A stretch of DNA of 64,000 nt from Kofleriaceae bacterium (GTDB lineage Bacteria > Myxococcota_A > Polyangia > Haliangiales > Haliangiaceae): the NCBI GenBank assembly GCA_018058095.1, contig JAGPCO010000003.1:32199-96198 (forward strand), in the 5' to 3' direction. A model generated the notes under the pieces. That model did no database searches. It saw nothing but the letters and a program-made list of their open reading frames with translations, and was not told the DNA's origin. Position numbers and translations under genes: made by a program. Within the stretch, counting starts at the first letter, position 1, and every line of letters starts with the position of its first letter. This document shows positions 6,332 to 36,052 of the stretch, piece by piece.

Positions 6332-8599
6332 TCACGGGCAGGGCACGGCGATCGGCGCCGGCGTGGTGCGGTCGGCCCGGGTCGGGCCGAGCTGGCCGTG
6401 GTCGGCCTGGCCCCAGCACCACAGGTTGTCGTCGGTGGACAGCGCACACAGGTGGTCGGCCTGGCTGCCGGCGACCAGCGCCTTGATCGACGGCAGGCCG
6501 GGGACGGGCCCGGGCGTGCTCCGGTTCATCGTGCTGCCGTCGCCCAGCTTGCCGTACTCGGCGCTGCCCCAGCACGACACGACGCCGGCGACCAGGGCGC
6601 AAGTGGTGTCGTGGCCGACGGCGACGTCGTCGACCGGGCCACCCACCATGATCGCGGTCGGCGCGGTGCGGTCGACCTCGTCGTCGTCGCCGATGACGTC
6701 CAGGGTGTCGTTCTCGCCCCAGCAGTACAGCGCATCGGTGCTGGTGATCGCGCACGACACGTCCTCGCCGACGGCCACGCGCCGGGCCGGCGAGAGCCCG
6801 GCGATGAGGGTGGGCGCCAGCCGCTGGTTGCCGGTGCCGTCGCCGATTCGGCCGCCGCCGCCGCTGCCCCAGCACAGGACCTCGCCGGCGTTCGACCGGG
6901 CGCACGCGTGCTGGTCGCCGCCGGCGATCTCGGCCATGGGGCCGGGCAACGACACGAGCGGTCCGCCGACGCTGCGCTGGGCGAGGGTGCCGTCGCCCAG
7001 CTCGCCGGCGTAGTTGCCGCCCCAGCACGACAGCTCGCCGGCGCCGTCGCGGGTGCAGGCGAAGGTGCCGCCGGTCGTGACCTCGACCGCGCCGGGCAGC
7101 GTCTGGGCCAGGGTCGGGGTCAGGCGTGGCCGGCGCGCGCCGTCGCCGAGATTGCCGGCCCCACCCGCGCCCCAGCAACGCACCGCGCCGTCGGCGTAGG
7201 CGGCGCACGTGAACCCGGCCGAGGCGTCGACGTCGACCACCCCGGCGGCGATCGGCACGGCCTCCTCGTGGTCGGTGACCGAGCCATCACCCAGCTCTCC
7301 GTCGGCGTTGCTGCCCCAGCACGCCAGCGAGCCGTCGCCCAGGCCGCGCACCGCGCAGGTGCGATAGCCGGCCATGGCCAGGTCGGTGGCGTCGTCGATC
7401 GCCGTCGCGGTGGCGGTGTTGACCTGGAAGAAGTCGCCGGAGCCGACCTCGCCAGCGTCATTCTGGCCCCAGCACGCGACCGTGCCGTTTGCTCGCCGCA
7501 CGCAGGTCGAGTCGGTACCGGCGGTCACCGCCGCGGCGCTGGCCACGCCGGTCGCGATCACCGGCGTCCACGCCGAGGTGACTCCGGCCTGTCCATCGCC
7601 GAGGCGGCCGTTGTGGCGGCCCCAGCAGCGCACGCTGCCGTCGAGGCGGACCGCGCAGGTGTGGACCGCGCCGGCGCCGATCGAGCTGGTCGTGCCCGGG
7701 CCGAGGCCGGCCACGGCCAGCGGCGTCGACGAGCGCGGGACCAGGACCGGATCGTTGCCGAGCTTGCCGTCGGAGTTGGCGCCCCAGCACCAGACCGAGT
7801 CATCGGTCCGGACCGCGCAGGTGAACTCACCACCGGCCACGACCTGGCGCGCGCGCTGGCCGGGCACCTGGACCGGCGTGGTGCGCCGGGTGAGGGAGCC
7901 GTCGCCGAGCTGGCCGTCGCTGTTGTCGCCCCAGCACCAGACCGAGGCGTCGACGCCGAGGGCGCACGCGTGGCTGTCGCCGGCGGTGATCGCCGAGAAC
8001 GCCGGCTGCCCGGCGTCGCCGACCGGGGCCGGCCTGGCGCGGGTCGTGGAGGTGCCGTCGCCGAGCTGGCCCTCGGTGCCGGCGCCCCAGCACCAGGCCG
8101 CCCCGCTCACGATCGCGCAGGTGAAGTCGTCGCCAGCGTCGCCAGCGGTGGGGGTGTCGAGCCCGGTCACCAGCGTCGGCGTGAGGCGATCGACCATGGC
8201 GCCGTCGCCGAGCTGGCCGTCGCGGCCGCGGCCCCAGCAGCGCAGGTCGGCGCCGACCGGCAGGGCGCAGCCGTGGTTGGTGCCGAGGAAGATCAGGGCC
8301 AGCGGGCCGGGCAGGATCGTGGTCGGGTCGGCCCGCGCCGCCTGCTCGCCGTTGCCGAGCTCGCCGTCGACGTTGCGGCCGACGCACCACAGCTCGCCGT
8401 CGGTCCGCACCACACAGGTGTGGCCGTAGCCGACCGCCGCCCGGGCCACGCAGCCGGGCCCGACCGCGTCGGGGCTGGCGTCGGCCGAGCCGGGCCCCAA
8501 GCGCGACCCGTCGAAGCCGACCAGGCCGCAGCCGAGCGTGCCGGCCGCGACCAGGGTCAGCGCGAGGACCGGTGGCCAGGTCGTTCGTTCCCGCCGCAC
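6332..8599 (-). CDS. RCC1-repeat lipoprotein
   Basis: A 755-residue predicted lipoprotein. The leader ends VAAGTLGCG, then comes a short D/A linker, and the rest is more than ten RCC1-type blades, each with a C-x-V/A-x...CWGxNxxGxLGDG pattern (CWGRGRDGQLGDG, CWGDNSDGQLGDG, CWGANSDGKLGND). RCC1 repeats fold as seven-bladed propellers; the number of repeats suggests two propellers in tandem. The paired Cys in each blade could form disulphides outside the cytoplasm. A second protein of this kind lies at 37123-38427. Its role is unknown; surface binding is an inference from fold and export. Confidence 0.85.
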   Translation of the reverse strand: MRRERTTWPPVLALTLVAAGTLGCGLVGFDGSRLGPGSADASPDAVGPGCVARAAVGYGHTCVVRTDGELWCVGRNVDGELGNGEQAARADPTTILPGPLALIFLGTNHGCALPVGADLRCWGRGRDGQLGDGAMVDRLTPTLVTGLDTPTAGDAGDDFTCAIVSGAAWCWGAGTEGQLGDGTSTTRARPAPVGDAGQPAFSAITAGDSHACALGVDASVWCWGDNSDGQLGDGSLTRRTTPVQVPGQRARQVVAGGEFTCAVRTDDSVWCWGANSDGKLGNDPVLVPRSSTPLAVAGLGPGTTSSIGAGAVHTCAVRLDGSVRCWGRHNGRLGDGQAGVTSAWTPVIATGVASAAAVTAGTDSTCVRRANGTVACWGQNDAGEVGSGDFFQVNTATATAIDDATDLAMAGYRTCAVRGLGDGSLACWGSNADGELGDGSVTDHEEAVPIAAGVVDVDASAGFTCAAYADGAVRCWGAGGAGNLGDGARRPRLTPTLAQTLPGAVEVTTGGTFACTRDGAGELSCWGGNYAGELGDGTLAQRSVGGPLVSLPGPMAEIAGGDQHACARSNAGEVLCWGSGGGGRIGDGTGNQRLAPTLIAGLSPARRVAVGEDVSCAITSTDALYCWGENDTLDVIGDDDEVDRTAPTAIMVGGPVDDVAVGHDTTCALVAGVVSCWGSAEYGKLGDGSTMNRSTPGPVPGLPSIKALVAGSQADHLCALSTDDNLWCWGQADHGQLGPTRADRTTPAPIAVPCP

Positions 8600-9600: not shown

Positions 9601-10035
9601 GGTCGTGGACCTTGACGGCGACGGCGACGTGGAGGTGGACGCCACCTTTGACGCAGCCCACCGCGACGCACGGCCGATGCACTTGGCATGCTCAGCTTCT
9701 AGCGTCTCGACGTCTATCAACGAGCCATCGAATTTCTTGCCTTGGGCTACGACCTCGTCGATGTCTTGCCGCGCGGTCATCCCGATCGCGTGGACCAGTT
9801 GACCCGAGCCGCCGAGTCCGTCGTGCGCAACATCGCCGAAGGTGCGGGCCGTTGGTCCGAAGCCGACAGCTCGACGTCATGAAGTTGCGCAAGCTCATCA
9901 CCGAGGAGCGCTTGGTACGTGGCGCCAAGCTGCTCGAAGGTGTCGTTGCAATGCGCACGAAGATGATCTGAGAGTTGCGTCAAAGGTGGCGACCACCTCC
10001 ACGTCGCCGTCGCCGTCAAGGTCCACGACCACGAC
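9596..10035. repeat. 60-bp inverted repeat enclosing a dead four-helix-bundle gene
   Basis: Arms at 9596-9655 and 9976-10035 are reverse complements of each other with one mismatch seen (GGTGGACGCC against GGTGGTCGCC). They enclose 320 bases containing the pseudogene at 9688-9971 almost exactly. The arrangement looks like a small mobile cassette or a duplicated end. No transposase is encoded inside. Confidence 0.85.
9688..9971 (+). pseudogene. Four-helix-bundle (23S rRNA IVS-type) protein, broken
   Basis: The reading starts MLSF, hits TAG at 9700-9702, and continues RLDVYQRAIEFLALGYD, LPRGHPDRVDQLTRAAES and VVRNIAEGAGRWSEAD. It then shifts frame and resumes as QLDVMKLRKLITEERL and GAKLLEGVVAMRTKMI with stop at 9971. 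This is the four-helix-bundle family found inside 23S rRNA intervening sequences and as stand-alone genes (usually about 120 residues). Two lesions are visible: a nonsense codon at position 5, where the family has Glu or Lys, and an internal deletion of roughly 20-25 codons with a frameshift. The total length of 284 bases is not a multiple of three. Confidence 0.8.
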
Positions 10036-10071
10036 GACGACCACGTCGACGTCAACGCCAATTAGGGACAC
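10027..10071. repeat. 45-bp repeat shared with the IS remnant at 22 kb
   Basis: These 45 bases are the exact reverse complement of 22056-22100. The shared block includes the sequence TGTCCCTAATTGGCG, which at 22 kb lies at the terminal inverted repeat of an insertion-sequence remnant. This marks 10071 as the end of a related, decayed element. Confidence 0.85.
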
Positions 10072-10075
10072 GCCC

Positions 10076-11593
10076 CTAGCCCGGCGGCAGCGCCGGTCCC
10101 ATCAGCGTCACCTCGAGCCCACCCTCGGCCCGGTTGTCGAAGGCCAGGGCGAACCCGTGCAGGCGCGCCACGGTGTGGGTGATGTGCAGGCCCAGGCCAT
10201 GGCCGCCGGTGCTGCGGCCGCGGGCGGCGTCGCCGCGGAAGCCACGCTCGACCAGGCGACCGAGCTCGGCCTCGGCGATACCGGGCCCATCGTCGAGGAC
10301 CCGGACCACGAAGCGGTCGCCGGCCAGGCGGTCGACCACGACCGCGACGTGGCCGCCGCGCCGGTTGTAGCGGATGGCGTTGTAGACCAGGTTGCTGACC
10401 GCCTGCTCGATCATCGTCAGGTCGGCGTCGATCCGCAGCGGCGCCTCCGGTACGCCGCTGTCGAGCTCGATGCCGCGCTCGCTGGCGATGGGGCGGTGCC
10501 GGGCCAGGACCCGGGCCACCAGGGCGCCGAGGTCGACCGGCGAGCGTTCGATCTGTGGCTCGGCCACGTCGACCCGCGCCGCCACGCCGAGGTTGTGGAT
10601 GAGCGCGCCGAGGTAGTGCGCCTCGTCCATCGCGCTGGCGACCTTGGCCTCGACCTGGGCCGGGTCGGCTCGCACCGCCGGGTCGCGCAGCGCCGCCAGG
10701 TGCTGACCGAGCACCGTCAGCGGGATCATCGTGTCGTGGGTGGTGTTGGCCAGGAACTCACGCAGCACCCGCTCGCGGTCGTCGCGAGCGGTGAGCTGGC
10801 GCCGGACCTCGCCGGTGGCGGCGGCGAAGGCTCGGCTCAGGTCGCCGACCTCGTCGCGGGCCGGATCGAGCGCCACGCCGGCGCCGGTGAACCCGGTGGC
10901 GGCGGCGGCCTGGACCTGCGCGGTCAGGCGGCGGATGCGCCGCACCACCGGGCCGATCGCCAGCATGACCATGGCCAGCACCGCGACCAGCGGCAGCAGC
11001 CAGATCGGGCTGGCCGGCAGCAGCGCGCCCAGGAAGCCCGGCGTGGTCGTGCCGCGGGTGACGATGATGGCGCACGGGCCGGCCGGCCAGTCGGTCCGGA
11101 CCGCGACGGTCACGTCGGCGGCGAAGGTCGACGGCGCGACCGCGACCCAGTCGCGGCTGGCCAGCGCGGCCCGCACCGAAGCCGGCAGCGGTGGCGCCGC
11201 TGGATCGACCGCGGACAGATCGCCGGCGTGGGCGTGGAACCGCGGCGGCGCCCCGCGCGGGCCGAGCGGTGGCGGCCGGGGTGGTCCCTCGTCCCGGTCC
11301 GGCCCGAGGGGCCCGAGCTCATCCGGTCCCGGGCCTTCGCCCACTGGCCCTGGTCCGCGTGACCCTGGCCCGTGTGGCCCTGGCCCGTGCCGGTGCGGCC
11401 CGCGGCTCCAGCCGACCGGATCGGCCTCGCACCGCGCCCGCGCGCCTGGCTCGTCGAGGCGAGCCCGGGTGATGCGCACCAGCGCGTCCTCGGCGGCGCG
11501 GTGGCGGCTGCGGGCGTCGAGCCAGATCAGGCCGATCACCATCGGCACCGCGACCGCGACGGTGGCCACCACCAGGCGCGCGCGTAGCCTCAC
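10076..11593 (-). CDS. Membrane sensor histidine kinase with Gly/Pro/His-rich sensor loop
   Basis: Predicted two-pass sensor kinase of 505 residues from a GTG at 11593 (GAGGA just upstream); an in-frame GTG at 11650 would add 19 residues without helping the membrane segment. Segments: TM1 LVVATVAVAVPMVIGLIWL; a periplasmic loop with a low-complexity stretch of GP/HGPG units (about residues 75-125); TM2 IWLLPLVAVLAMVMLAIG; HAMP-like region; H-box FLANTTHDTMIPLTVL; N-box NLVYNAIRYN; G1 DDGPGI; G2 GGHGLGLHI. The H-box Glu/Asp after His is Asp. Probably phosphorylates the convergent response regulator at 8716-9378. Confidence 0.88.
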   Translation of the reverse strand: MRLRARLVVATVAVAVPMVIGLIWLDARSRHRAAEDALVRITRARLDEPGARARCEADPVGWSRGPHRHGPGPHGPGSRGPGPVGEGPGPDELGPLGPDRDEGPPRPPPLGPRGAPPRFHAHAGDLSAVDPAAPPLPASVRAALASRDWVAVAPSTFAADVTVAVRTDWPAGPCAIIVTRGTTTPGFLGALLPASPIWLLPLVAVLAMVMLAIGPVVRRIRRLTAQVQAAAATGFTGAGVALDPARDEVGDLSRAFAAATGEVRRQLTARDDRERVLREFLANTTHDTMIPLTVLGQHLAALRDPAVRADPAQVEAKVASAMDEAHYLGALIHNLGVAARVDVAEPQIERSPVDLGALVARVLARHRPIASERGIELDSGVPEAPLRIDADLTMIEQAVSNLVYNAIRYNRRGGHVAVVVDRLAGDRFVVRVLDDGPGIAEAELGRLVERGFRGDAARGRSTGGHGLGLHITHTVARLHGFALAFDNRAEGGLEVTLMGPALPPG

Positions 11594-22272: not shown

Positions 22273-23814
22273 TCAGCGTCGGCGCGCCCGGCGCCGGCGC
22301 GCCGCGAACCACGTCGCGAGCAGCAGGGTGGATAGGCCACCGGCGCCGGCGCTTCCCTGGCAGCCGCAGCCATCGCCGGGGCGCAGGTCCCAGCGCACGA
22401 AGAAGTGCCCGCTGACCACCACCCGCTGACCGTCGAGGTTGACCTCGAGGCGGATCCGCTGCGGGACGTCGGACTCCACCGCCGGCACGAGCACGGTCTC
22501 GGTCCAGTCGTCGCTCGGCACCGGCACCACCAGGTCCTCGTCGCCGTCGCGCCAGATCGAGACGGTGCCGCCGGCGGCGCCGGTGAGGTGGACCTCGAGC
22601 TCGAGCGGACCCTGGGCGATCACGTCGTCGCCGAGGCGGGCCAGCAGGCCGTCACGGCCGCGGGCGGTGACGTCGAGCACCGGGTCGTCGGGGCCACGCA
22701 GCTGGACGATCGTGCGCCCGGCCCGCACCGCGGCCAGGAGCGACGCCTCGCTCAGGTCGTCGGCGTACACCATCGTCGTCGGCGAGCCGATGGGCGAGTC
22801 GGTCGCGCCGGTGCCGGCGCCGGCGCGGTGGTCGTCGCTGCCGCCGACCGCGGCCAGGCGGTGCCCGGCCGCCAGCTGCTCGTCCCACAGGGCGATCGCC
22901 TGCGGCGTGAACAGGTTGGCGGTCAGCTCGTACGGCCCGGTCTGGATCTCGATGGCGGCGACCTGGTCCCACGGCGTATCGGCGTGGGTCCAGCCGCAGC
23001 CGATGCAGATGTCGCCGACGCGCAGCGCGGGGTGGTTGACCACGAACAGCGCCCCCTGGGCCACGACCTCGCCGACGAGCGTGGTGGCGCTGACCGGCCC
23101 GGCGGCGCCGCCGCGATCGAACCCGACCCGGTGGTCGACGTACTGGCTCAGCCCGAGCGCGTTACCGTGCCCGGCGTAGGTGGTGACCTCGGCCGCGCGC
23201 AGGAAGAGCAGCGCGGGCTGGCCTGGCTGCGCCGCCGCCAGCCGCGGCAGGTGCGACACGGTGTTGTGGTCGGACACGGCGACGAAGTCGAGGCCGCGGC
23301 TGCGGGCCAGGGTGGCGATCTGGTCCAGGCTGGCGCTGGCGTCGCCGCTCTCCTCGGAGTGGACGTGGAAGTCACCGCGGTACCAGCGCGGGCCGGTCGC
23401 CAGCACGGTCGGCGTGTACCCGGCCCGCGCGGTCGGCGTCAGGGTGGCGGTCGGTCGGCAGGTGACGTCGACGACGTAGCGGCCGGCGCCCTGGGCCAGC
23501 TTGGCCTTGCCGATGACCAGCGACCAGGTCCCAGCCGGGATGGGCCCCTCGAGGTAGCCGCGCGACGACTCGTCGACGCCGATGATGGCGTCGTCGCCCA
23601 GGCCGCCGCCCCAGCCGCGGAAGCCGCCGTCGGGCTGCCACACGCCCCAGTCGAGGATGACCTCGGGCGAGCCGTCGCTGTGGGCGACCTGCACCTCGAC
23701 CATCCCGGCCGGGACGTCGAACGGGACGACGACGTAGTCGCCGCCGGCCTCGGCCACGTCGCCCTCGAGGTGGATCGGCGCCGTGTTGCAGAGCAGGAAG
23801 AGGAGGGGCAGCAC
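22273..23814 (-). CDS. CehA/McbA-type PHP metallohydrolase with MYXO-CTERM-like tail
   Basis: Exported protein of 513 residues with a short signal (MLPLLFLLCNTA). Residues 10-130 are beta-rich. The PHP phosphoesterase domain begins at YRGDFHVHSEESGD (metal-binding HxH) and continues with FVAVSDHNTVSHLP, RAAEVTTYAGHGNALG, FVVNHPAL and VGGSDDHR, the set of His/Asp ligands of CehA/McbA proteins. A second beta domain follows. The C-terminus has a Cys cluster (DGCGCQG), a hydrophobic stretch (GLSTLLLATWFA) and an Arg tail (ARRRRARRR), the three-part layout of MYXO-CTERM sorting signals. Acts outside or at the surface; substrate unknown. Confidence 0.82.
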   Translation of the reverse strand: MLPLLFLLCNTAPIHLEGDVAEAGGDYVVVPFDVPAGMVEVQVAHSDGSPEVILDWGVWQPDGGFRGWGGGLGDDAIIGVDESSRGYLEGPIPAGTWSLVIGKAKLAQGAGRYVVDVTCRPTATLTPTARAGYTPTVLATGPRWYRGDFHVHSEESGDASASLDQIATLARSRGLDFVAVSDHNTVSHLPRLAAAQPGQPALLFLRAAEVTTYAGHGNALGLSQYVDHRVGFDRGGAAGPVSATTLVGEVVAQGALFVVNHPALRVGDICIGCGWTHADTPWDQVAAIEIQTGPYELTANLFTPQAIALWDEQLAAGHRLAAVGGSDDHRAGAGTGATDSPIGSPTTMVYADDLSEASLLAAVRAGRTIVQLRGPDDPVLDVTARGRDGLLARLGDDVIAQGPLELEVHLTGAAGGTVSIWRDGDEDLVVPVPSDDWTETVLVPAVESDVPQRIRLEVNLDGQRVVVSGHFFVRWDLRPGDGCGCQGSAGAGGLSTLLLATWFAARRRRARRR

Positions 23815-23941: not shown

Positions 23942-25078
23942 CTACGGCGCGGTCCAGCGCACGTTCAGCGTGTAGGTCGACGCGGTGTACCCGTTGACCA
24001 TCACGTAGGCCTGGCTCTGGCCGGCCGGGACCGTGACCGTGCAGGTCTCGGTTGCGCTGCTCAGGTACGGCCGGCAGTCGAACCGCCGCGTCGTCGGCGC
24101 GGCGCCGAAGCGGACGTACAGGTCGGCGTCGCCGGTGCCGGTGATGGCCGCGGTGAAGAGCGTGCCGGCGCGGACCGCGTACGGCCCGGCGCCAGCGTTG
24201 GCGCCGCGCGCCAGCGTGCCCGACTGCGTCGCGGTCTGCTCCCCGGTCGGGGGCGGCGGCGGCGGCGGCGGCGGGTTGCCGCCGGGCGCGCCGTACAGGG
24301 CGGCTGCGCCCTGGGCATCGCGCGTGGTGAAGTCGAGGTCGTTCGACGAGCCGTTGCACTGCGGGTAGTGCATGACCGAGGCCGAGTCGTACGGGGTCAG
24401 CGGGCGCCACGCGGTGTCCTCGAAGCACGTGCCCGACTCGGGCCGGGTGTGCTCGTGGCGGAAGCCGAGGGCGTGCCCGAGCTCGTGGGCGAGGATGTTG
24501 CGGACGGGCCACCCGCCGGGCGAGAAGGAGCTGGTGTCGACCAACACCTCGCGCGCGCTGCGCGGGTTGTTGGGGAAGAACGCGCGGGCCAGGTAGGGCT
24601 GGCCGCTGACCTGGCGCACGTTGAAGACGACGTTGGGGTTGCTGGCGGTGCAGCTCGCGTCCTGGGCCGGGACGTAGACGAAGTTGACGTTGGCCATCGT
24701 CTCCCAGCCGAGGTCGGTGGCCTGGCGCAAGGCCTCGACGATGGCCGCCTTGTTGCCGGCGAAGTTGTTGTTCACGCAGTAGGTCAGGTTCAGCTTCTGG
24801 GTGTCGTTCCAGCGGGTGTCGAGCCCACCCGAGGTGTTGACGATGAGCCGGCGGTTCTGCAGCTCGTCCCAGAACTCGCGCAGCGCCTTCTCGTCGAGGA
24901 TCGGCGTGTCACCGTTGACGATGTACAGGCCGCCGTCCCACGTCTCGCGGTAGGTCTGGGCCGCGAACTCCTCGAACGTGGTCGGCACGTCCGGGTCGCT
25001 CCCGTCGAGCTCGTCACCCGCCGTCGCGCAAGCAAGCAGCCCACCGGCCGCCACCAGGGTCAATGCAGTGCGAATCAT
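23942..25078 (-). CDS. Astacin/matrixin-like zinc metalloprotease with PPC domain
   Basis: Predicted lipoprotein of 378 residues, leader ending GGLLACATA. The protease domain (90-260) carries the extended zinc site HELGHALGFRHEHTRPE (HExxHxxGxxH) and a Met-turn SVMHYP, the metzincin hallmark. A proline run (PPPPPPPPP) then joins a C-terminal domain with GTGDADLYVRFG, CRPYLSSATETC and ending YTLNVRW, typical of bacterial pre-peptidase C-terminal (PPC) domains that are often trimmed after secretion. Probably an extracellular predatory or nutritional protease, as is common in myxobacteria. Confidence 0.88.
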   Translation of the reverse strand: MIRTALTLVAAGGLLACATAGDELDGSDPDVPTTFEEFAAQTYRETWDGGLYIVNGDTPILDEKALREFWDELQNRRLIVNTSGGLDTRWNDTQKLNLTYCVNNNFAGNKAAIVEALRQATDLGWETMANVNFVYVPAQDASCTASNPNVVFNVRQVSGQPYLARAFFPNNPRSAREVLVDTSSFSPGGWPVRNILAHELGHALGFRHEHTRPESGTCFEDTAWRPLTPYDSASVMHYPQCNGSSNDLDFTTRDAQGAAALYGAPGGNPPPPPPPPPTGEQTATQSGTLARGANAGAGPYAVRAGTLFTAAITGTGDADLYVRFGAAPTTRRFDCRPYLSSATETCTVTVPAGQSQAYVMVNGYTASTYTLNVRWTAP

Positions 25079-25581
25079 CGTGGCCTCCCGAGATGGATGT
25101 CTTGGCCAGCCTCGTTTCACGGCTGATGCCAACGTCCGGTTGGCCGGACCGAATCACGCTCGGGTCCTGACAGGATCGGGGCCGTGTGCTGAGGCCTGTC
25201 ATGCGCAGGGGTGGAGAGCGCAGGCCTCCCTCGATGAAGCAAACGTAAGCGGTGGGACGACACACGTAGGTGCGTGTCGCGCCAACGTGCGCTCACCACC
25301 CACGCAGGCCCGCACCTGCCCACGCGGCGGCCGGAGCGCACCTGTCAGGCGCGGCGGTGGTCGCGCCCACCAGATCGTCAGCACCCGCGCAGACAGACCC
25401 TCATTCAGCGTGACAGCTCGTCGCGCTGACCGCGGCTCGCCAGCGACTTCTGCCACGGCGACGAGGTGCGACACCGGTGACGCATGTGCCGCGACCACGG
25501 CTTGGCACCCACGCTGGGCGGCGCCTGTTGTGCGGCCACGGCGGGGCTGGTGCCGAAGGCGCCTACATCGGCAGATGGTCG
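25079..25581. other. Non-coding gap of about 500 bases
   Basis: No frame here has a credible start, leader or family pattern on either strand. A weak stem around 25258-25279 (CGACAC...GTGTCG) is the only structure noticed. It is the longest gap without a gene apart from the riboswitch region and the scar at 9.4-10.1 kb; it may hold the promoter of the protease gene at its left side. Confidence 0.5.
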
Positions 25582-26742
25582 TCAGAAGCAGACGAGGTTG
25601 TTGCCGACGCCGGGTGGCATGCCGATGCCGAGCGGCGCGGTCGTCACCTCGGTGGTGCCACGGAAGATCCGGAGCCCGGACCCGGCCATGGCCTTGTCGC
25701 TCACCACCACGTAGTCGTCGGGGCAGGCGGCGAGATCGACGATGACCTGGCCAGGCTGGGACACCGGCTCGTCCCACAACGCGCCGGAGCCGAGGTCGAC
25801 CCCGCGCAGCGCGCCGAACGAGTCGAAGCCGGCGTCGAACCCGGTGGCGGCGATCCACAACACCCCGCCGCTGCCGGCCGGCTCGACGTGGTTGACGTAG
25901 CCGCCGAGCGCCGCGTTGCTGGTGGCGCAGGTCGCGGCCGGGCTGGCGCCGGTCGAGATCCGGACCAGGCAGCCGGTCGAGAAGTCCTGGTAGTCGGGCA
26001 CGGTGCCCAGGACCAGATCGCCGGCGAAGAAGCCGGCGCTCGGCGTGGCCTGGAGCAGGCCGACCGGGTTGCGCGCCGGCAGGTCGAAGGTGGAGGTGAC
26101 GGTCGCGGTGAGGGTGTCGATCACCGCGACCTTGCCGTTGCCGCGCGGCGCGAAGGTCTCGTCCAGCACGCCACACGCCACGAACAGCCGGGTCCCGACC
26201 GCCAGCACCGACACGCAGTCGGGGTGGCCGTCGACGGCGTCGAGGCTGGCCAGGCTGATGTTGGTCAGCGCGTTGCCGGCCGCGCGGTCGAACACCAGCA
26301 GGTCGGGCGAGGCCAGCGCGGCCACGTACAGCTTGGTGCCGACGACGGCGGCGTCCTGCGGGTTGCTGCCGGCGCCGGTGCCGAGCTGGTCGACCAGGGC
26401 CAGGGTGTCGAGGTCGAGGATCGTGACGTTGTCGCCGCTGGCGCGGTTGACCACGAGCAGCTCGGCGCCGGCCCGGCGCAGCACCGGGTCGCCGCCGGCC
26501 ACGCCGGCGACGGCGCCGACCTGGACCGTGCCGGCCACCACGTTGACGACCGACAGCACGCCGGTCGTGGCGAAGTCACCCGACACCGCGATCGCCCGGG
26601 GCGGCGCCGCAATCGGGGCGTCGCCGTCGCCGGGCGCGGCGTCGGCGCCATGGTCGTGGTCGTGGGTGTTGTCGCCGCAGGCGATCAGGGCGAGGCCCAG
26701 CGTGAGGGTGGCGGCAGGCAGGACGGGTAGCAGGCAGCGCAT
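25582..26742 (-). CDS. Predicted beta-propeller lipoprotein downstream of the B12 receptor (BtuG-like candidate)
   Basis: Protein of 386 residues. The leader ends ALIACGD, followed by a His/Asp motif NTHDHDHGADA and a D/A linker. The rest shows about seven repeats of the YVTN/NHL kind, each a surface-exposed beta strand set (VSVLAVGTRLFVACGV, GNGKVAVIDTLTATV, DDYVVVSDKAM). It lies 68 bases after the BtuB-like receptor, same strand, and so is probably under the same cobalamin riboswitch. In Bacteroides, the propeller lipoprotein BtuG captures B12 for BtuB; an equivalent role here is inference from fold and context. The His-rich stretch could bind metal. Confidence 0.78.
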   Translation of the reverse strand: MRCLLPVLPAATLTLGLALIACGDNTHDHDHGADAAPGDGDAPIAAPPRAIAVSGDFATTGVLSVVNVVAGTVQVGAVAGVAGGDPVLRRAGAELLVVNRASGDNVTILDLDTLALVDQLGTGAGSNPQDAAVVGTKLYVAALASPDLLVFDRAAGNALTNISLASLDAVDGHPDCVSVLAVGTRLFVACGVLDETFAPRGNGKVAVIDTLTATVTSTFDLPARNPVGLLQATPSAGFFAGDLVLGTVPDYQDFSTGCLVRISTGASPAATCATSNAALGGYVNHVEPAGSGGVLWIAATGFDAGFDSFGALRGVDLGSGALWDEPVSQPGQVIVDLAACPDDYVVVSDKAMAGSGLRIFRGTTEVTTAPLGIGMPPGVGNNLVCF

Positions 26743-26760
26743 CGGGAGCTCCAGGGCCAG

Positions 26761-26803
26761 GGATCGAGGTTCGGATCGCGGTCGGATCGAGGTTCGGATC
26801 GCG
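26761..26803. repeat. 20-bp direct repeat between receptor and propeller genes
   Basis: Two identical 20-base copies (26761-26780 and 26784-26803, starting GGATCGAGG) are separated by three bases in the 68-base gap after the receptor stop. They are rich in GATCG and partly self-complementary. A translational spacer or processing site is possible. Confidence 0.75.
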
Positions 26804-26810
26804 ATCCAGG

Positions 26811-28994
26811 TCACCGCCGCCAGGTCGCGCTCAGGTAGACGGCGCGGCCGGGGAGCGGGAAGCCAGCGACGTCGGCGATCGCGGTCGGCACGGTCGCCAG
26901 GTCGGGTCGGGGCGCGGGGTCGAGCGGCAGCGCGGCCTGGCGGGCGTCGAGCAGGTTGCTGACCTCGAGCCCGACCGACAGCGCCTCGGTCAGCCCGGCC
27001 TTGCCGCCGACGCTGAGCAGGGCCCGGCCGGGCACGCGCTGCAGGTTGGCCTGGTCGAGGTAGCTGCCAGCCTGCCAGTCGAGCCCGGCCCACAGATCGA
27101 CCAGGCGATCGATCAGCCGATCGGCCAGGTCGATCCGGACCGCGGCGGCGTGGCGCGGCCGGCGCGGCAGGTCGCGCCCGGCGTAGCTGGCCTCGCCGCC
27201 GTGCTGCGCGGTCCACATCGCGGTGTAGTTGCCGACGACGAGCAGCCGGCGCGCCAGCCGGGCCGACCCCGACAGCTCGAGCCCGGCGGTGCGCGCGCCG
27301 CCGACGTTGAGCGGGCGCGCCACCCCGCCCAGCGTGCTGGTGAGGACGATGGTGTCGGTCGAGCGGGTGGCGAAGCCGGCCGCCTCCAGGTACAGGCGAT
27401 CGAACCGACCGCGGCGGTCGGCCGGGGCCAGCGCCAGGCCGAGGTCGCCGCTCCAGCCGCGCTCCGGCCGCAGCTCGGGCGTGCCGACGATGAAGCCGCG
27501 GTCGCCGAACAGCTCGAGCAAGGTCGGGCTGCGCGCGTAACCACCGACGCTGCCCTTGACGGTGAGGGCGTCGGTCAGGCGGTGGCGCGCGCTCAGGCGC
27601 GGGCTCGGCAGGACGTCCCAGCGCGGCGGCGGCGCCATCGCCAGCGGTCGGTCGAGATCGACCGGCGCCGCGGTCCGGCCGACGTCGACACGCAGCGCCG
27701 GGGTCACGACCACGGCGCCGGTGCCCAGCTCGAGCGCCAGCGCCGGCGCGAGGCCGAGCCGGTGGCCGCTGGTGGCGACGCGGCTGCTGCGCAGGTCGCG
27801 GTCGGACATGAGGTCGGCGCGGAGCTCGCCGGCCGCGAGCAGGCGGTGGCGACCGAGCAGGCGGGCCCACGCCGTGGTCGCGCCGAGCCCGCCGGTGCGG
27901 TAGCGCCGGCGCTGTACGCCGACGCCGATCTCGTCGGCCGGGTCGTCGTAGCGCTGCTGCTCGCCGACCAGGTACAGGGCGTGGCGGGCCTCGGCCGCGC
28001 CCCAGCGCGAGGCGACGCCACCGTCGACCACCAGGCCCAGCGTCGACAGCTCGGCGTCGCGCACGGCCTGCCACATCGAGCCCGGCAGGCCCTGCCGGCG
28101 CCAGCCCAGGCGCAGGCCGAGCGCGCCGGCGCGGGTGTCGGTGCCGACGATCCGGGCGCTGGCGTCGAGCTGGTCGACCTGGTTGTTCTGCCGGGTCGGC
28201 CAGCTGTCGTCACCGGCGCTGAGCGGCGTCCCGCCGTCGGAGAAGTAGCCGAAGTCGCCGCGGCTGCCCTGGTACCCCAGCCACGCCGCGGCGCGGGCCC
28301 GGCCGCCGGCCAGCTCGTCGCCCAGGCCGAGCGCGAGGTGCCGCGCCGCGAACGAGCCGGCGCCGGCGCTCAGCGTCAGGCGCTCGCCGTCGGGGCCGCG
28401 GCCGACGCGCGACACCAGGTTGAGGGCGCCGCCGACGCCGGCCCCGCCCAGCTCGACCGGCACGGCGCCGCGGTACAGCTGGACCTCGGCCAGGCCGCCG
28501 AGCTGGAACCGGCCGAGGTCGGTGGTGATCGCGCCCAGCCGCGACAGCGGGATGCCGTCGACGAGCACGGTGGTGTGGCCGGGCGCGGCGCCGCGCACCG
28601 ACAGCGAGGCGTAGGCGCCGGCGCCGCCGACGGTGCGGATCTGGGTCCCGACCGCGCCGGCCAGCACCTCGGCCAGCGAGGTCGCCTCGCCCTCGAGCTC
28701 GTCGACGTGGATGATGGTGACGAACGGCGCCGCGCCGAGCGCGCGGCCGCGGTCGCGCACCGCCGCCTCGTCGCTGGTCCGCTCGGCCCGCCCGCCGCGT
28801 GGCCGATCGACGACGATGATGGTCTCCTCGCCGATGCTCGGTGGCGTGGTCGAGGCGGCCGGCGCGGTCGAGGCGGCCGGCGCGTCCACGCCGGTGGTGG
28901 TCGGCTCGGCGCCAGCGCGCGCACCCGGCCACGCCACCGCGGTCGCCGTTGCGACCACACCCGCGAACCAACATCGGAGCTGAGACGGAGACAT
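26811..28994 (-). CDS. TonB-dependent receptor, BtuB-like
   Basis: Outer-membrane receptor of 727 residues, start at 28994 (GGGG a few bases upstream), signal ending ARAGAEP. The plug domain (90-220) has FVTIIHVDELEGEA, LAEVLAGAVGTQIRTVGG, SVRGAAPGHTTVLVDG and GAGVGGALNLVSR. The beta barrel follows and ends AVYLSATWRR. A cobalamin riboswitch lies about 105 bases upstream on the same strand, which strongly supports a corrinoid substrate. The predicted propeller lipoprotein gene follows. Confidence 0.9.
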   Translation of the reverse strand: MSPSQLRCWFAGVVATATAVAWPGARAGAEPTTTGVDAPAASTAPAASTTPPSIGEETIIVVDRPRGGRAERTSDEAAVRDRGRALGAAPFVTIIHVDELEGEATSLAEVLAGAVGTQIRTVGGAGAYASLSVRGAAPGHTTVLVDGIPLSRLGAITTDLGRFQLGGLAEVQLYRGAVPVELGGAGVGGALNLVSRVGRGPDGERLTLSAGAGSFAARHLALGLGDELAGGRARAAAWLGYQGSRGDFGYFSDGGTPLSAGDDSWPTRQNNQVDQLDASARIVGTDTRAGALGLRLGWRRQGLPGSMWQAVRDAELSTLGLVVDGGVASRWGAAEARHALYLVGEQQRYDDPADEIGVGVQRRRYRTGGLGATTAWARLLGRHRLLAAGELRADLMSDRDLRSSRVATSGHRLGLAPALALELGTGAVVVTPALRVDVGRTAAPVDLDRPLAMAPPPRWDVLPSPRLSARHRLTDALTVKGSVGGYARSPTLLELFGDRGFIVGTPELRPERGWSGDLGLALAPADRRGRFDRLYLEAAGFATRSTDTIVLTSTLGGVARPLNVGGARTAGLELSGSARLARRLLVVGNYTAMWTAQHGGEASYAGRDLPRRPRHAAAVRIDLADRLIDRLVDLWAGLDWQAGSYLDQANLQRVPGRALLSVGGKAGLTEALSVGLEVSNLLDARQAALPLDPAPRPDLATVPTAIADVAGFPLPGRAVYLSATWRR

Positions 28995-29099
28995 CGTTAC
29001 CCCACGTAACGGCGGGCCCGAAGGCCGGACGGAGGGGTGTGGACGTCGTCGCCGACGCACCAGGACACGAGCGTGCCCTCACCCCGAGGAAGAATCGCG

Positions 29100-29255
29100 T
29101 GGGCCGGTCTCCTGGCTCCTGGTTCGTCCTCGGACGCTGCCTTCCCGGTCTCCCGGTGGCTGGCTCATCGCCTAGCGTCGTCGTCCCCAGTCACAGTAGC
29201 GGGGGCTGCGCCGGATTCATCACCGGCTTCCCGTGCACCCATGCGGTCGTTGTCG
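29100..29255 (-). promoter_or_regulatory. Cobalamin riboswitch
   Basis: On the minus strand the segment contains GGGAAGCCGGTGATGAATCC, then CGGCGCAGCCCCCGC and TACTGTGAC, then GCCAG...CCGGGAAGGC, and finally AGCCAGGAGACCGGCC, which is the B12 box. These are the conserved blocks of the AdoCbl-type riboswitch in the right order and spacing. It lies in the leader of the BtuB-like receptor and should turn the unit off when cobalamin is plentiful. The ends are approximate. Confidence 0.95.
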
Positions 29256-29454
29256 TGTGCGTGCTGCTTCGGTCGGGACCTCGGGCGCGGCGCCGCGCCC
29301 CTGCGTTGTACGAGCGGCGCCCCACCCAAGTCAACGCCCGCCACCCGCCCGTGCCGCAAGCGCGTGGGATGACACGAGAACACCCGCCCGTACAGCAAGC
29401 GTCACCCGCAGGATGGTTGACCGCCGTCGTCGGCCTGAGGGATCCTGGGCGGCG

Positions 29455-30093
29455 ATGAGGTCGAGGTGGGGATCGATCGTGACGAGCGTGGTGGCGATCG
29501 CCGCCTGCGACGATGGTGCGGGCGCGCCCGACGCAGATCCGACCGCGCCCGACGCCGACCCGACCGCACCCGACGCCGACCGGACCACGCCCGACGCCGC
29601 GGCGGCGCGGCCCGACGCGGCCGGTGGCGTCGGTGAGCCGCCCGAGCTGGCCGGCATCACGCTGCGCCACAACGAGGTCCGGGCCACCGTCGACGTGCCG
29701 GCGCTGACGTGGGATCCGGCGCTGGCCGCCATCGCCACCGCCTGGGTCACGCAGTGTATCGATCAGCAGCAGCCGATCGGCCTGGTCGACCACAACGCCG
29801 GCCGCAGCACCGGCTACCCGAGCTACGTCGGCGAGAACATCTTCGGCGCCGGCGGCAGCGCGACCGCGGCGGCGGCGGTCGATCTGTGGGCGAGCGAGGC
29901 GCAGTACTACGACGCCGGCACCAACACCTGCAACGCGCCGGTCGGCCGCAGCTGTGGTCACTACACCCAGGTGGTGTGGCGGACCACGACCAAGCTCGGC
30001 TGCGCGTTGCACGCCTGCGCCGGCCTGCAGTTTGGCAGCACGATCGTGTGCAACTACGGCCCCGGCGGCAACACCGGCGGGGCGCCGTTCTGA
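29455..30093 (+). CDS. CAP (SCP/PR-1) domain lipoprotein 1
   Basis: Predicted lipoprotein of 212 residues. The leader ends VAIAACDDG, followed by a repetitive linker (PDADPTAPDADPTAPDAD) as in the lipoprotein at 4.9 kb. The CAP domain begins LRHNEVRATVDVPALTWDP; it has YVGENIFG, CGHYTQVVWRTTTKLGCAL and VCNYGPGGN, the four family signatures with the conserved His and Glu. Bacterial CAP proteins are extracellular with unclear activity. A paralogue follows after 16 bases. Confidence 0.88.
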   Translation: MRSRWGSIVTSVVAIAACDDGAGAPDADPTAPDADPTAPDADRTTPDAAAARPDAAGGVGEPPELAGITLRHNEVRATVDVPALTWDPALAAIATAWVTQCIDQQQPIGLVDHNAGRSTGYPSYVGENIFGAGGSATAAAAVDLWASEAQYYDAGTNTCNAPVGRSCGHYTQVVWRTTTKLGCALHACAGLQFGSTIVCNYGPGGNTGGAPF

Positions 30094-30109
30094 GCAAGGA
30101 GCCGCGCCG

Positions 30110-30652
30110 ATGAAGCGACCGATGTGTGTCCTCGCCCTGATCCTGACCGCCGCGTGTGGCGGTGACGACGGCGGCGGTGGTGGTGGTGGTGGTGGCGACA
30201 GCGAACCGGCCGCGCTGAGCGGCACCCTGGCCGCGCACAACGCGGTCCGGGCCACCGTCGACGTGCCGGCCCTGGCCTGGGATGGCGCGCTGGCCGACAT
30301 CGCCCAGGCCTGGGCCGACCAGTGTGTCGACCAGGAGGCGCCGATCGGCCTGATCGATCACAACGAGGGGCGCAGCGAGGGGTACCCGAGCTACGTCGGC
30401 GAGAACGTTTATGGCTCGAGCGGCGCCGCGACCGGGCCCGACGCTGTCGCCGCGTGGGCCTCGGAGGAGGCCGACTACGACCACGCCAGCAACACCTGCA
30501 GCGGCGTGTGTGGCCACTACACCCAGCTGGTCTGGCGCGACACCACCCACGTCGGCTGCGCCATCGGCAACTGCGCCGGCTTGCGCTTCGGCAACGTCGT
30601 CGTGTGCAACTACGGCCCGGGCGGCAACGTGAACGGCGCGCGCCCGTACTAG
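30110..30652 (+). CDS. CAP (SCP/PR-1) domain lipoprotein 2
   Basis: A 180-residue paralogue of the preceding gene with AAGGAG upstream of the ATG. Leader ends LILTAACGG, followed by a Gly run. Core: LAAHNAVRATVDVPALAWD, YPSYVGENVYG, CGHYTQLVWRDTTHVGCAI, VCNYGPGGNVNG. The two are a tandem duplication. They probably form one transcript ending at the hairpin at 30705. Confidence 0.88.
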   Translation: MKRPMCVLALILTAACGGDDGGGGGGGGGDSEPAALSGTLAAHNAVRATVDVPALAWDGALADIAQAWADQCVDQEAPIGLIDHNEGRSEGYPSYVGENVYGSSGAATGPDAVAAWASEEADYDHASNTCSGVCGHYTQLVWRDTTHVGCAIGNCAGLRFGNVVVCNYGPGGNVNGARPY

Positions 30653-30766: not shown

Positions 30767-31234
30767 TCACTGACCGACGATGTCGCCCTTCATGCCGCCG
30801 AGCGCGCCGAGCAGCTCGTCCTTCTCGGCCTGCGGCACGCTGAACTTGTCGAGGGCCTTGACCAGGTCCTCGACCACCGCGCCGAACTGCTCCTCGGTGA
30901 TCTGCATGCCGGTGTGCGTCGTCTTCATGTCGCGCCCGGTGTAGGTGCAGCCGCCGCCGGTCGCCGCGCAGATCTGGTCGCGCAGGTGGCCCTTGAGCTT
31001 GTCGATGTCGGTGTTGGCGAAGAACGAGTTGACCCGCGCGTCGGCGGCGACGTTGGCGACGAACTCGTCGACCACGGCGCTGATCGCGTCGGCGCCGCCG
31101 AGGCGCTCGAACAGGGTCTTCTGGGTCTCGGCGGTGGTGTCGCCGCCGCCGGCCTCCTTGACGTCCTTCTTGCCACCACCACAAGCCATGAGCGAAGCGG
31201 CCGCGAGCGCGGCCAAGATCATCCGAAAGCGCAT
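30767..31234 (-). CDS. Exported truncated hemoglobin (group I-like) lipoprotein
   Basis: Protein of 155 residues. A lipoprotein leader ([15 protein letters not shown]) precedes a truncated globin domain: [35 protein letters not shown] and [15 protein letters not shown], where the His is the expected proximal haem ligand. A two-Cys insert ([14 protein letters not shown]) sits before the F helix. Truncated globins are usually cytoplasmic O2/NO proteins; an exported, probably lipid-anchored form is unusual and suggests a periplasmic or surface NO/O2 role. Confidence 0.85.
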
Positions 31235-31383
31235 CTTTGCTGTCCTTTGTTGCGTTGCGGCCAGTCCGGCCGTTGCCCGGAGGTCCGGTCGCCCCAGTAC
31301 GAGGCCCCGCCCCAAGCGGATCGACTGATACCAGAACGCGCAGGGGGTGCGCCGCTCGGGTGTGACGCGAAGATCGGGCCAGC

Positions 31384-33568: not shown

Positions 33569-36052
33569 TCACGGGCAAGCGCCACAGTCGACCTCGCAGC
33601 TGGCGCAGGTCTCGAGCGGGTCACACGTGGCGTCGCCGCAGCGCGGTCGCGTCGCCGGGCAGCTGGTGCGCGGCGGGCACAGCGGATCGCAGCTCGGCCA
33701 GCAGTCGGGATCGGCGCAGCCAGCCAGGCCGTCGCCGTCGGCGTCGTCGCCGGTGGTGCAGCGCTCGGCCCGCCCACCGCTGCTCCACTCGAGCCGCCAG
33801 TGCTCCTCGTAGGTGTACTCGAGGTCGCCGGTGACACCGCCGAACAGGCGCGGCGCGCCGTCGCGGCCCGGCACCAGCGTCGTGCCCCAGCGCCCGAGCG
33901 GGACCTGGCCGCTGACCTCGATCAGCTCCCAGTCGGTCCCGGTCCACTCCCAGGTGTCGTCGAGCGGGCCGCCGGCGTTGAGCCCGCCGAACAGCACGAC
34001 GCGGCCGCGCCGCGGGTCGAACGTCATGGCCGGGAACACTCGCCGCGGCGGCACCTGGGTCGGCTGCAGCTGCTGCCAGGTCGTGCCGTCGAACTCCCAG
34101 GTGTCGTCGAGCGCGTACTGGTCGGCCGACTGACCCGCGAACAGCACCACGCGGTCGCGCACCGGGTCGTACGCCATGCCGGCGCCCCAGCGCGGCAGCG
34201 GCGCCTCCGCCGGCGCGAGGTCGGTCCAGCCGGCGCCGTCCCAGGCCCAGGTGTCGGCGGAGAACTCGCTGGCCGGGCGCGGCGGATCGGTCGGCTCGAT
34301 GAGCCACGCGCTCGGCACCCGACGGCCGCCGAACATCAGCGCGCGCCGGCGCTGGCTGTCCCACACCAGGCCGGCCCGGCTCCGCGCCGGCGGGCGCGTC
34401 GCCAGCGGCACCTCGCGCCAGCTGGTGCCGTCGACCAGCCAGGTGTCGTCGAGGTTGCTGCTGCCCGACACGCCGCCAAACAGCAGGACCGCGCCGCGCT
34501 CGGGGTCGAACACCGCGCTGGCCAGCTGGCGCGGGCGCGGCGGGACGGGGCCGCTCCGCCAGCCGGTGGGGTCGTGGATCCACACGTCGTCCCAGGCCGC
34601 GTCCCACGGCGGCGTGCCACCGACGACGAAGGCGGCACCCCGGGCCGGATCGTAGGCGGCGGCGTGGAGCGCGCGCGGCATCGGACGGACCGTGGCCAGG
34701 GTCGACCACAGGCCGTGCATCAGGCCGGGCACCGAGGCCGCGTCGGTGCGCATGCCGGCGCCGGTGTACCAGCCGCCGAGCAGCACCAGCTGCTGCCGGG
34801 CCTCGTCCCACACGGTGGTGTGGGCGCCAGTGCCAGGCGCGCCGCTGAGCGGTCGCCAGGTCACGCCGTCCCACTCGTCGCTGCTCTCGCGGTAGACGTC
34901 GGGGTTGCGCTGGGTCGCGCCGCCGACCAGCACGACGCGGCCGCGCGCCGGCACGAAGGTCATGCTGCCGAAGTAGCGGCCACCTTGTGGCGCCGCCGCC
35001 TCGACCAGGCTCCACGCCGTGCCGTCCCACTCCCAGGTGTCGGTCAGCACGGCGGTCGCGTCGAACTGTTCGAGGCCGCCGTGCAGCACGGCGCGGCCGC
35101 GCACCGGGTCGAACGCGAGCTGGGCCCAGAACCGGGGCGGGGGCGCGACGGCGCCGGTGCGATCGATCCACGTCTCGCCGTCCCAGGCCCAGGTGTCGGC
35201 CAGGGCCTTCGACATGCGATCGATGCCGCCAAACATGAGGATCTCGCCCCGGACCGCGTCGTACGTCATGCCGGCGTGGGTCCGCGCCGGCGGCTGGGTG
35301 GTGACCAGGCGGCGCTGCCAGGTCGCGCCGTCCCACTCCCAGGTGTCGCCGAGCCGGGCCGAGCTGTCGCCGCCGAACAGCACCATGCGGCGGCGGCGGG
35401 CGTCGTACGCGATGGCGCCGCCCTCGCGCGCCGACGGCGAGACCGGCGGCGTGGCCCGCCACCAGGCGGTGCCGTCCCAGCGCCAGGTGTCGCCGAACAG
35501 CTGGCCACCGTCGCCGCCGCCGAACACCAGCACCTCGCCGGCGGCCGCGTCGTAGCCGGCGTGGGCCCAGCGCCGGCCCTGCACGACCGGCACGCCCTGG
35601 ACCCAGCGCGGCTGCTCGTCCTGGCACGCCGACGAGCAGCCATCGCCGCTGACCGGGTTGCCGTCGTCGCACTGCTCGTCTTGCTCGCGGTCGATCAGCG
35701 CGTTGCCGCACTCCTGCGTCGACGTGCAGTCGGCCGAGCACCCGTCTCCGCCGACCTGGTTGCCGTCGTCGCAGCGCTCGCCGCGCGCCGGCTCGACCAG
35801 CTGGTTGCCGCAGCCGGCGTCGACGCAGGCGCCGAGGGTACACACGCCGTCGGTGATGAGGCCGGCGCTGCAGGTGTCGCCGTCGGCGCGGCCGGCGCAG
35901 GCGGCGGCCTGCTCGGCCGGCACGCAGCCGAGCGGGTGACACACCGTCTGGTCGGGGCAGATGCGGCCATCGGCGCAGCGGGTGGCCGGCTCGGGCAGGC
36001 AGGCCGCGCCCAGCACGAGGAGCGGCGCCACCAGGGCCGGCAGGGAGCGCAT
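33569..36052 (-). CDS. Kelch-repeat and DUF4215 surface protein
   Basis: Predicted lipoprotein of 827 residues, leader ending LVLGAACLP. Residues 20-155 are Cys-rich and contain two DUF4215 repeats (CDDGNQVGGDGCSADC, CDDGNPVSGDGCSSAC). Residues 160-790 hold around a dozen kelch-type blades with repeating GDTWEWDGxTW, MxYDxxRxxxxLFGG units. The C-terminus is Cys-rich again (CADPDCWPSCDPLC, CASCEVDCGAC). These are typical myxobacterial surface proteins, perhaps adhesins. The minus-strand frame is clean over its whole length. Confidence 0.88.
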   Translation of the reverse strand: MRSLPALVAPLLVLGAACLPEPATRCADGRICPDQTVCHPLGCVPAEQAAACAGRADGDTCSAGLITDGVCTLGACVDAGCGNQLVEPARGERCDDGNQVGGDGCSADCTSTQECGNALIDREQDEQCDDGNPVSGDGCSSACQDEQPRWVQGVPVVQGRRWAHAGYDAAAGEVLVFGGGDGGQLFGDTWRWDGTAWWRATPPVSPSAREGGAIAYDARRRRMVLFGGDSSARLGDTWEWDGATWQRRLVTTQPPARTHAGMTYDAVRGEILMFGGIDRMSKALADTWAWDGETWIDRTGAVAPPPRFWAQLAFDPVRGRAVLHGGLEQFDATAVLTDTWEWDGTAWSLVEAAAPQGGRYFGSMTFVPARGRVVLVGGATQRNPDVYRESSDEWDGVTWRPLSGAPGTGAHTTVWDEARQQLVLLGGWYTGAGMRTDAASVPGLMHGLWSTLATVRPMPRALHAAAYDPARGAAFVVGGTPPWDAAWDDVWIHDPTGWRSGPVPPRPRQLASAVFDPERGAVLLFGGVSGSSNLDDTWLVDGTSWREVPLATRPPARSRAGLVWDSQRRRALMFGGRRVPSAWLIEPTDPPRPASEFSADTWAWDGAGWTDLAPAEAPLPRWGAGMAYDPVRDRVVLFAGQSADQYALDDTWEFDGTTWQQLQPTQVPPRRVFPAMTFDPRRGRVVLFGGLNAGGPLDDTWEWTGTDWELIEVSGQVPLGRWGTTLVPGRDGAPRLFGGVTGDLEYTYEEHWRLEWSSGGRAERCTTGDDADGDGLAGCADPDCWPSCDPLCPPRTSCPATRPRCGDATCDPLETCASCEVDCGACP

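Follow-up and report, generated by a model that had tools for sequence, protein, structure and literature searches.

Whether the capture of corrinoids by a propeller lipoprotein is confined to the Bacteroidetes is a question raised by a locus on contig JAGPCO010000003.1 of a Kofleriaceae bacterium living in soil or water (Myxococcota; genome of 7.57 Mb, 97% complete), which we analysed within a stretch of 64,000 nucleotides, hereafter the window. BtuG is marked by very tight corrinoid binding and forms a stable complex together with BtuB. Wexler et al. 2018 (PMC6143338) reported it from Bacteroidetes only, described it as exclusive to them, and suggested that competition in the gut may account for its origin. 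On the minus strand of the window, a cobalamin riboswitch is followed by a gene for a TonB-dependent receptor and a gene for a lipoprotein, an arrangement that a preliminary description made from the sequence had read as a BtuB-like receptor with a possible BtuG analogue. Our analysis indicates that the trio very probably constitutes an outer-membrane operon for corrinoid capture and uptake of the BtuB-BtuG type. The lipoprotein shares with BtuG1-3 of Bacteroides (3DSM, 8BMY, 8OKV, 8BLW) a lipid anchor, a seven-bladed propeller, adjacency to btuB and a cobalamin riboswitch, but belongs to a different phylum, has low sequence identity to them and binds corrinoids by prediction only.

Predicted fold and conserved face of the lipoprotein

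The lipoprotein is composed of a signal peptide (residues 1-21), the lipid-anchor Cys22 within the lipobox LIAC, a variable linker (23-44) and a predicted seven-bladed propeller (45-386). The lipobox cysteine is invariant in 49 sequences, giving the family the lipoprotein signal of BtuG, and is followed by acidic residues. No Pfam family matched the lipoprotein, and NCBIfam returned a sub-threshold YVTN repeat only. Membership in Pfam PF16819 (DUF5074) was considered and rejected, as the lipoprotein had no match and 6 of 47 relatives matched weakly, below the gathering score (best E 1.8e-4). A short candidate for a second copy in the genome (C204, residues 13-59) vanished with the family profile.

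An AlphaFold2 model built from an alignment with 26 relatives adopted a propeller fold with a mean predicted local distance difference test score of 89.6. The preliminary description had named the comparison of such a model with BtuG as a way of checking the resemblance. In Foldseek against the PDB, the top 13 matches were all BtuG, mostly cobalamin-bound, led by 8okv (E 1.8e-12, template modelling score 0.77 by target), and the top 11 entries in VIA were again all BtuG (Z 28.8-30.3), ahead of an archaeal surface-layer protein (Z 27.9) and unrelated propellers (Z 25.8 or below). BtuK1 (9S6C), a B12-binding lipoprotein of Bacteroides, also aligned to the propeller model, more weakly than BtuG (Z 24.9). 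BtuG is therefore the best match of the predicted seven-bladed propeller, residues 45-386 of which aligned full length on BtuG with unchanged blade order (VIA), at an identity of only 12-15% in the structure alignments. A broad profile of 47 relatives reached BtuG chains in the PDB at E 1e-6 to 4e-4 over a long co-linear alignment, and a profile-profile comparison with BtuG2 and BtuG3 gave a probability of 85 (E 6e-6), pointing to a weak sequence link between the lipoprotein and BtuG.

The residues most strongly conserved in the family lay largely on the side of the propeller that bears the D-A and B-C loops (Mann-Whitney p 5e-4 versus the opposite face), comprising D85, R100, N127-P128-Q129, D168, D171, G172, P174, N225, P226, G257 and L279-G280-G281. 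In BtuG2, B12 is gripped by the loops Asp236-Pro249 and Lys266-Ser274 (PMC10404256), which correspond to the B-C and D-A loops of the lipoprotein family. The alignment placed L279-G280-G281 of the family onto the LGD that precedes Trp272 in BtuG, and the LG[GD] motif, together with positions that are mostly aromatic, coincided with the beta5B and beta5A loops (numbering of PMC10404256).

The receptor, its riboswitch and their conservation

The receptor contained the Pfam domains Plug and TonB_dep_Rec_b-barrel. In the PDB, its profile was best matched by BtuB1 (8blw_A) of the Bacteroides BtuB1G1 complex, which aligned from end to end (E 1.1e-46); BtuB2, BtuB3 and E. coli BtuB likewise came near the top. 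VIA also ranked BtuB1 first (Z 39.0), making BtuB the closest solved structure by both measures. While it shares TonB dependence with Bacteroides BtuB1 and E. coli BtuB, the receptor scored 82.4 bits against the BtuB equivalog model TIGR01779, for which the cut-off is 599.7; because it falls so far below this proteobacterial threshold, we refer to it as BtuB-like rather than as a member of the equivalog.

The riboswitch matched RF00174 over all 189 model positions and, at 82.2 bits, far exceeded the gathering score of 31.5 (cmscan). No other Rfam family exceeded its threshold in the window, and the riboswitch was a single copy in a scan of the genome. Before the receptor start codon lies the hairpin GTYACGTGGGGTRAC, which ends 1 nt before the ATG (28994) and carries the Shine-Dalgarno sequence (GGGG) in its loop. 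The hairpin pattern occurred once in the window against 0.04 expected by chance, and the same element stands before the start codon of the first gene at 13 further loci, this gene being the lipoprotein in 2 of them; over the loci, the middle pair is T-A, C-G or T-G and there is one terminal change, the rest being invariant. The presence of a Shine-Dalgarno sequence in the loop of a conserved hairpin before the start codon suggests translational control. As the GGGG is complementary to loop L5 of the aptamer (AGCCCC), we propose that the hairpin corresponds to P13/L13 and forms a kissing loop that would hide the ribosome site upon cobamide binding. The leader resembles RF00174 riboswitches of the btuB type in having a complete aptamer, followed by a btuB-like gene, and a hairpin near the Shine-Dalgarno sequence. 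However, the E. coli btuB riboswitch possesses, in addition to P13, a helix P14 that controls access to the Shine-Dalgarno sequence (PMC11162775), whereas here the proposed P13 hairpin itself carries this sequence in its loop.

We envisage that at low cobamide the aptamer would be empty and the hairpin loop with the receptor Shine-Dalgarno sequence free, allowing one mRNA to yield both receptor and lipoprotein; with cobamide bound, L5 (CCCC) would kiss the GGGG loop, hide the Shine-Dalgarno sequence and shut off the operon. The lipoprotein, anchored via Cys22 in the outer membrane and assumed to be exposed at the cell surface, would hold the corrinoid on its D-A/B-C loop face and, acting as a lid, may pass the ligand to the receptor, which would import it with TonB energy.

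The named relatives are metagenome-assembled genomes of Kofleriaceae and other Myxococcota. A survey of 95 relative genomes yielded 53 lipoprotein matches, 36 of which lay downstream of a cobalamin riboswitch on the same strand, in almost every case with ~2.3 kb between them, enough for a receptor gene; many of those without this linkage stood at contig ends or were short and partial. A receptor homologue adjoined the lipoprotein in 45 of 48 loci examined. In a phylum-wide draw, the family profile matched 128 of 284 genomes, and the riboswitch was linked to the lipoprotein in at least 42, with a receptor-sized gap in at least 31 and within 1 kb in at least 11, so that the family has the linkage to btuB and a corrinoid riboswitch by which BtuG is recognised. 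The same order recurred in Candidatus Eisenbacteria, with riboswitches of 105-125 bits, and a Spirochaete locus held the lipoprotein-receptor gene pair. The family is thus widespread in Myxococcota and extends to Candidatus Eisenbacteria and a Spirochaete. The preliminary description had rightly recognised a complete riboswitch, a TonB receptor and a propeller lipoprotein, and its proposal of a BtuG-like partner of BtuB under riboswitch control agrees with the comparisons of fold and of profiles and with the gene order kept among relatives; the pairing in a myxobacterium stands, but not as an oddity of one organism.

Several Myxococcota at greater distance also encode, further along the same neighbourhood, BtuF, BtuC, an ABC ATPase, CobU, CobT, CobS, a CobB/CobQ-type amidotransferase, an aminotransferase and CbiB. 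These neighbours link the pair to corrinoids by evidence other than structure. In two relatives (G019 and G022), the riboswitch and hairpin directly precede the lipoprotein gene (76-80 nt), and the receptor is encoded on another contig with no riboswitch detected upstream (loci G019:C8 / L104 and G022:C39 / L102), the G019 receptor gene still having the window's divergent CAP gene as its neighbour. This direct placement argues that the lipoprotein is itself a target of B12 control and no passenger. The genome under study gave no match to CbiC or CobU and contains two BtuF-like proteins, one FecCD permease and at least eight matches to B12-binding domains, which fits a host that uses cobamides and cannot make them and that probably scavenges B12.

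Some loci carry two lipoprotein copies (L069:4461-5603 and 7270-8391; G064:C21:82359-84802; L125:5746-6891 and 9775-11052), which may be duplicates of the capture protein that differ in the corrinoids they prefer.

Alternative readings and ancestry

Several observations weigh against an operon of the BtuB-BtuG type. Searching with the lipoprotein alone, phmmer found no BtuG chain, so that the protein falls short of the BLASTP level (1e-10) by which Wexler et al. 2018 defined homologues of BtuG, and a narrow family profile did not reach BtuG in the PDB either, leaving the sequence homology to be carried by the broad profile. The folding energy of the leader RNA was indistinguishable from that of shuffles. 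Moreover, XusB, a related propeller lipoprotein, binds siderophores (PMC13142918).

The low identity and the miss by the narrow profile would both be expected if a propeller lipoprotein had been recruited independently to BtuB in Myxococcota, serving the same function with a convergent resemblance to BtuG. A transfer, which the preliminary description had named beside an independent origin, may also account for the pair. We consider convergence unlikely and common ancestry with Bacteroidetes BtuG likelier than it, because homology, though weak, is detected by the broad profile and the profile-profile comparison, the match is full length with the same blade order, and the receptor partner too is closest to Bacteroides BtuB1; the LG[GD] loop motif beside Trp272 of BtuG is also common to both.

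The XusA-XusB system likewise joins a TonB-dependent receptor to a propeller lipoprotein lid, an arrangement predicted for our pair, and has a siderophore as its ligand. Uptake of siderophores or other metal chelates of this kind, with the riboswitch incidental, would accord with the top NCBIfam model of the receptor, the myxochelin receptor MxcH (below its cut-off), and with Foldseek, which ranked XusA first for the receptor and BtuB1 second. It is nevertheless very unlikely, given that the cobalamin riboswitch is linked to the genes throughout the phylum, that relatives' operons contain BtuFCD and Cob genes, that every siderophore receptor ranks below BtuB1 in the profile search and in VIA, and that XusB (DUF4374) matched the lipoprotein less well than all BtuG chains in Foldseek and is not its closest relative.

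Equally improbable is that we are dealing with a generic surface propeller of the YVTN/YncE kind, an adhesin or structural protein whose gene just happens to lie downstream of btuB. The best PDB sequence match of the profile is indeed an archaeal surface-layer YVTN propeller (E 1e-14), and 15 of 47 members matched YVTN repeats, but BtuG outranks the surface-layer protein in structure by both Foldseek and VIA, the gene order is kept throughout the phylum and beyond, and the riboswitch governs the lipoprotein gene alone in G019 and G022.

Cobalamin riboswitches also control cobalt transporters, and the preliminary description had singled out an HDHDH motif after the lipid anchor as an extra feature; the import of free cobalt or another metal in place of corrinoids, with HDHDH as a metal-binding tail, is nonetheless the least likely reading of all, since the motif is missing from the relatives examined, the receptor is best matched by BtuB among solved structures (profile and VIA), and the operons of relatives include genes for BtuFCD and for enzymes that assemble the nucleotide loop. 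The motif is present, confined to this lipoprotein among relatives whose linkers vary freely; a functional metal site was therefore rejected, and HDHDH is probably a lineage-specific linker without function in this system.

Returning to the BtuB-BtuG type operon, we lean towards the view that BtuG-type corrinoid capture is an older cross-phylum system of the outer membrane (Myxococcota, Eisenbacteria, a Spirochaete) of B12-scavenging soil and water bacteria rather than an invention of the gut or of Bacteroidetes. An open-access literature search found no paper describing this lipoprotein family. A 2026 study reported the B12-binding family DUF4465 from Myxococcota among other phyla, with genes that often adjoin PF16819 propellers (PMC13398666), which brings the wider idea close to the literature. 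If the reading is correct, a divergent but structurally clear BtuG counterpart that is widespread in uncultured Myxococcota and governed by the same RNA switch would change the Bacteroidetes-only account of BtuG. It would also supply further candidate corrinoid binders for testing and reveal another means by which soil and freshwater bacteria compete for B12.

Layout of the locus and neighbouring genes

The features of the operon are collected in Table 1; the extent of 25582-29255 given in the preliminary description fits the trio, except that the riboswitch ends at 29257 and not at 29255.

Table 1. Operon features and their positions in the window
Feature	Position	Strand	Basis
Cobalamin riboswitch aptamer (RF00174)	29085..29257	-	cmscan 82.2 bits, E 1e-18
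Aptamer loop L5 (AGCCCC)	29202..29207	-	sequence; L5 from RF00174 structure line
Proposed P13/L13 hairpin GTTAC-GTGGG-GTAAC	28996..29010	-	pattern search; 13 other loci
BtuB-like TonB-dependent receptor, 727 amino acids	26811..28994	-	Pfam, PDB profile, VIA
Receptor-lipoprotein gap, 68 nt	26743..26810	-	sequence; no terminator found
BtuG-like lipoprotein, 386 amino acids	25582..26742	-	lipobox, AlphaFold2, Foldseek, VIA
HDHDH, residues 27-31 of lipoprotein linker	26650..26664	-	sequence; linker comparison

Bearing on co-transcription of receptor and lipoprotein, no terminator-like sites were found on the minus strand between 25300 and 29600, and in relatives the two genes are frequently 3-24 nt apart or overlapping. 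The lipoprotein gene has its own Shine-Dalgarno sequence (GGAG, 26752-26749) inside the gap, and a sigma-70 promoter scan gave no match. A short direct repeat, gcgatccgaacctcgatcc, occurs twice within the same gap.

Divergent from the riboswitch operon, two tandem genes on the plus strand (29233-30093 and 29954-30652) encode CAP-domain (PF00188) proteins. A CAP gene likewise stands close to the receptor in at least nine relatives; G019, where no riboswitch was detected for the receptor, is one of them. The gene that directly follows the operon, at 23942-25081 (minus strand), encodes a secreted lipoprotein that resembles zinc metalloproteases (M10/M12-type) and has a proline run as well as a PPC domain. 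At 22273-23814 (minus strand) lies a gene for a PHP metallohydrolase of the CehA/McbA family (NF038032, 197.7 bits). A large kelch-repeat protein with cysteine-rich ends is encoded at 33569-36052 (minus strand). At 30767-31315 (minus strand) lies a gene for a bacterial-like (truncated) globin (PF01152) whose apparent lipoprotein signal peptide contains the lipobox LMAC; lipid anchoring would be unusual for a truncated haemoglobin.

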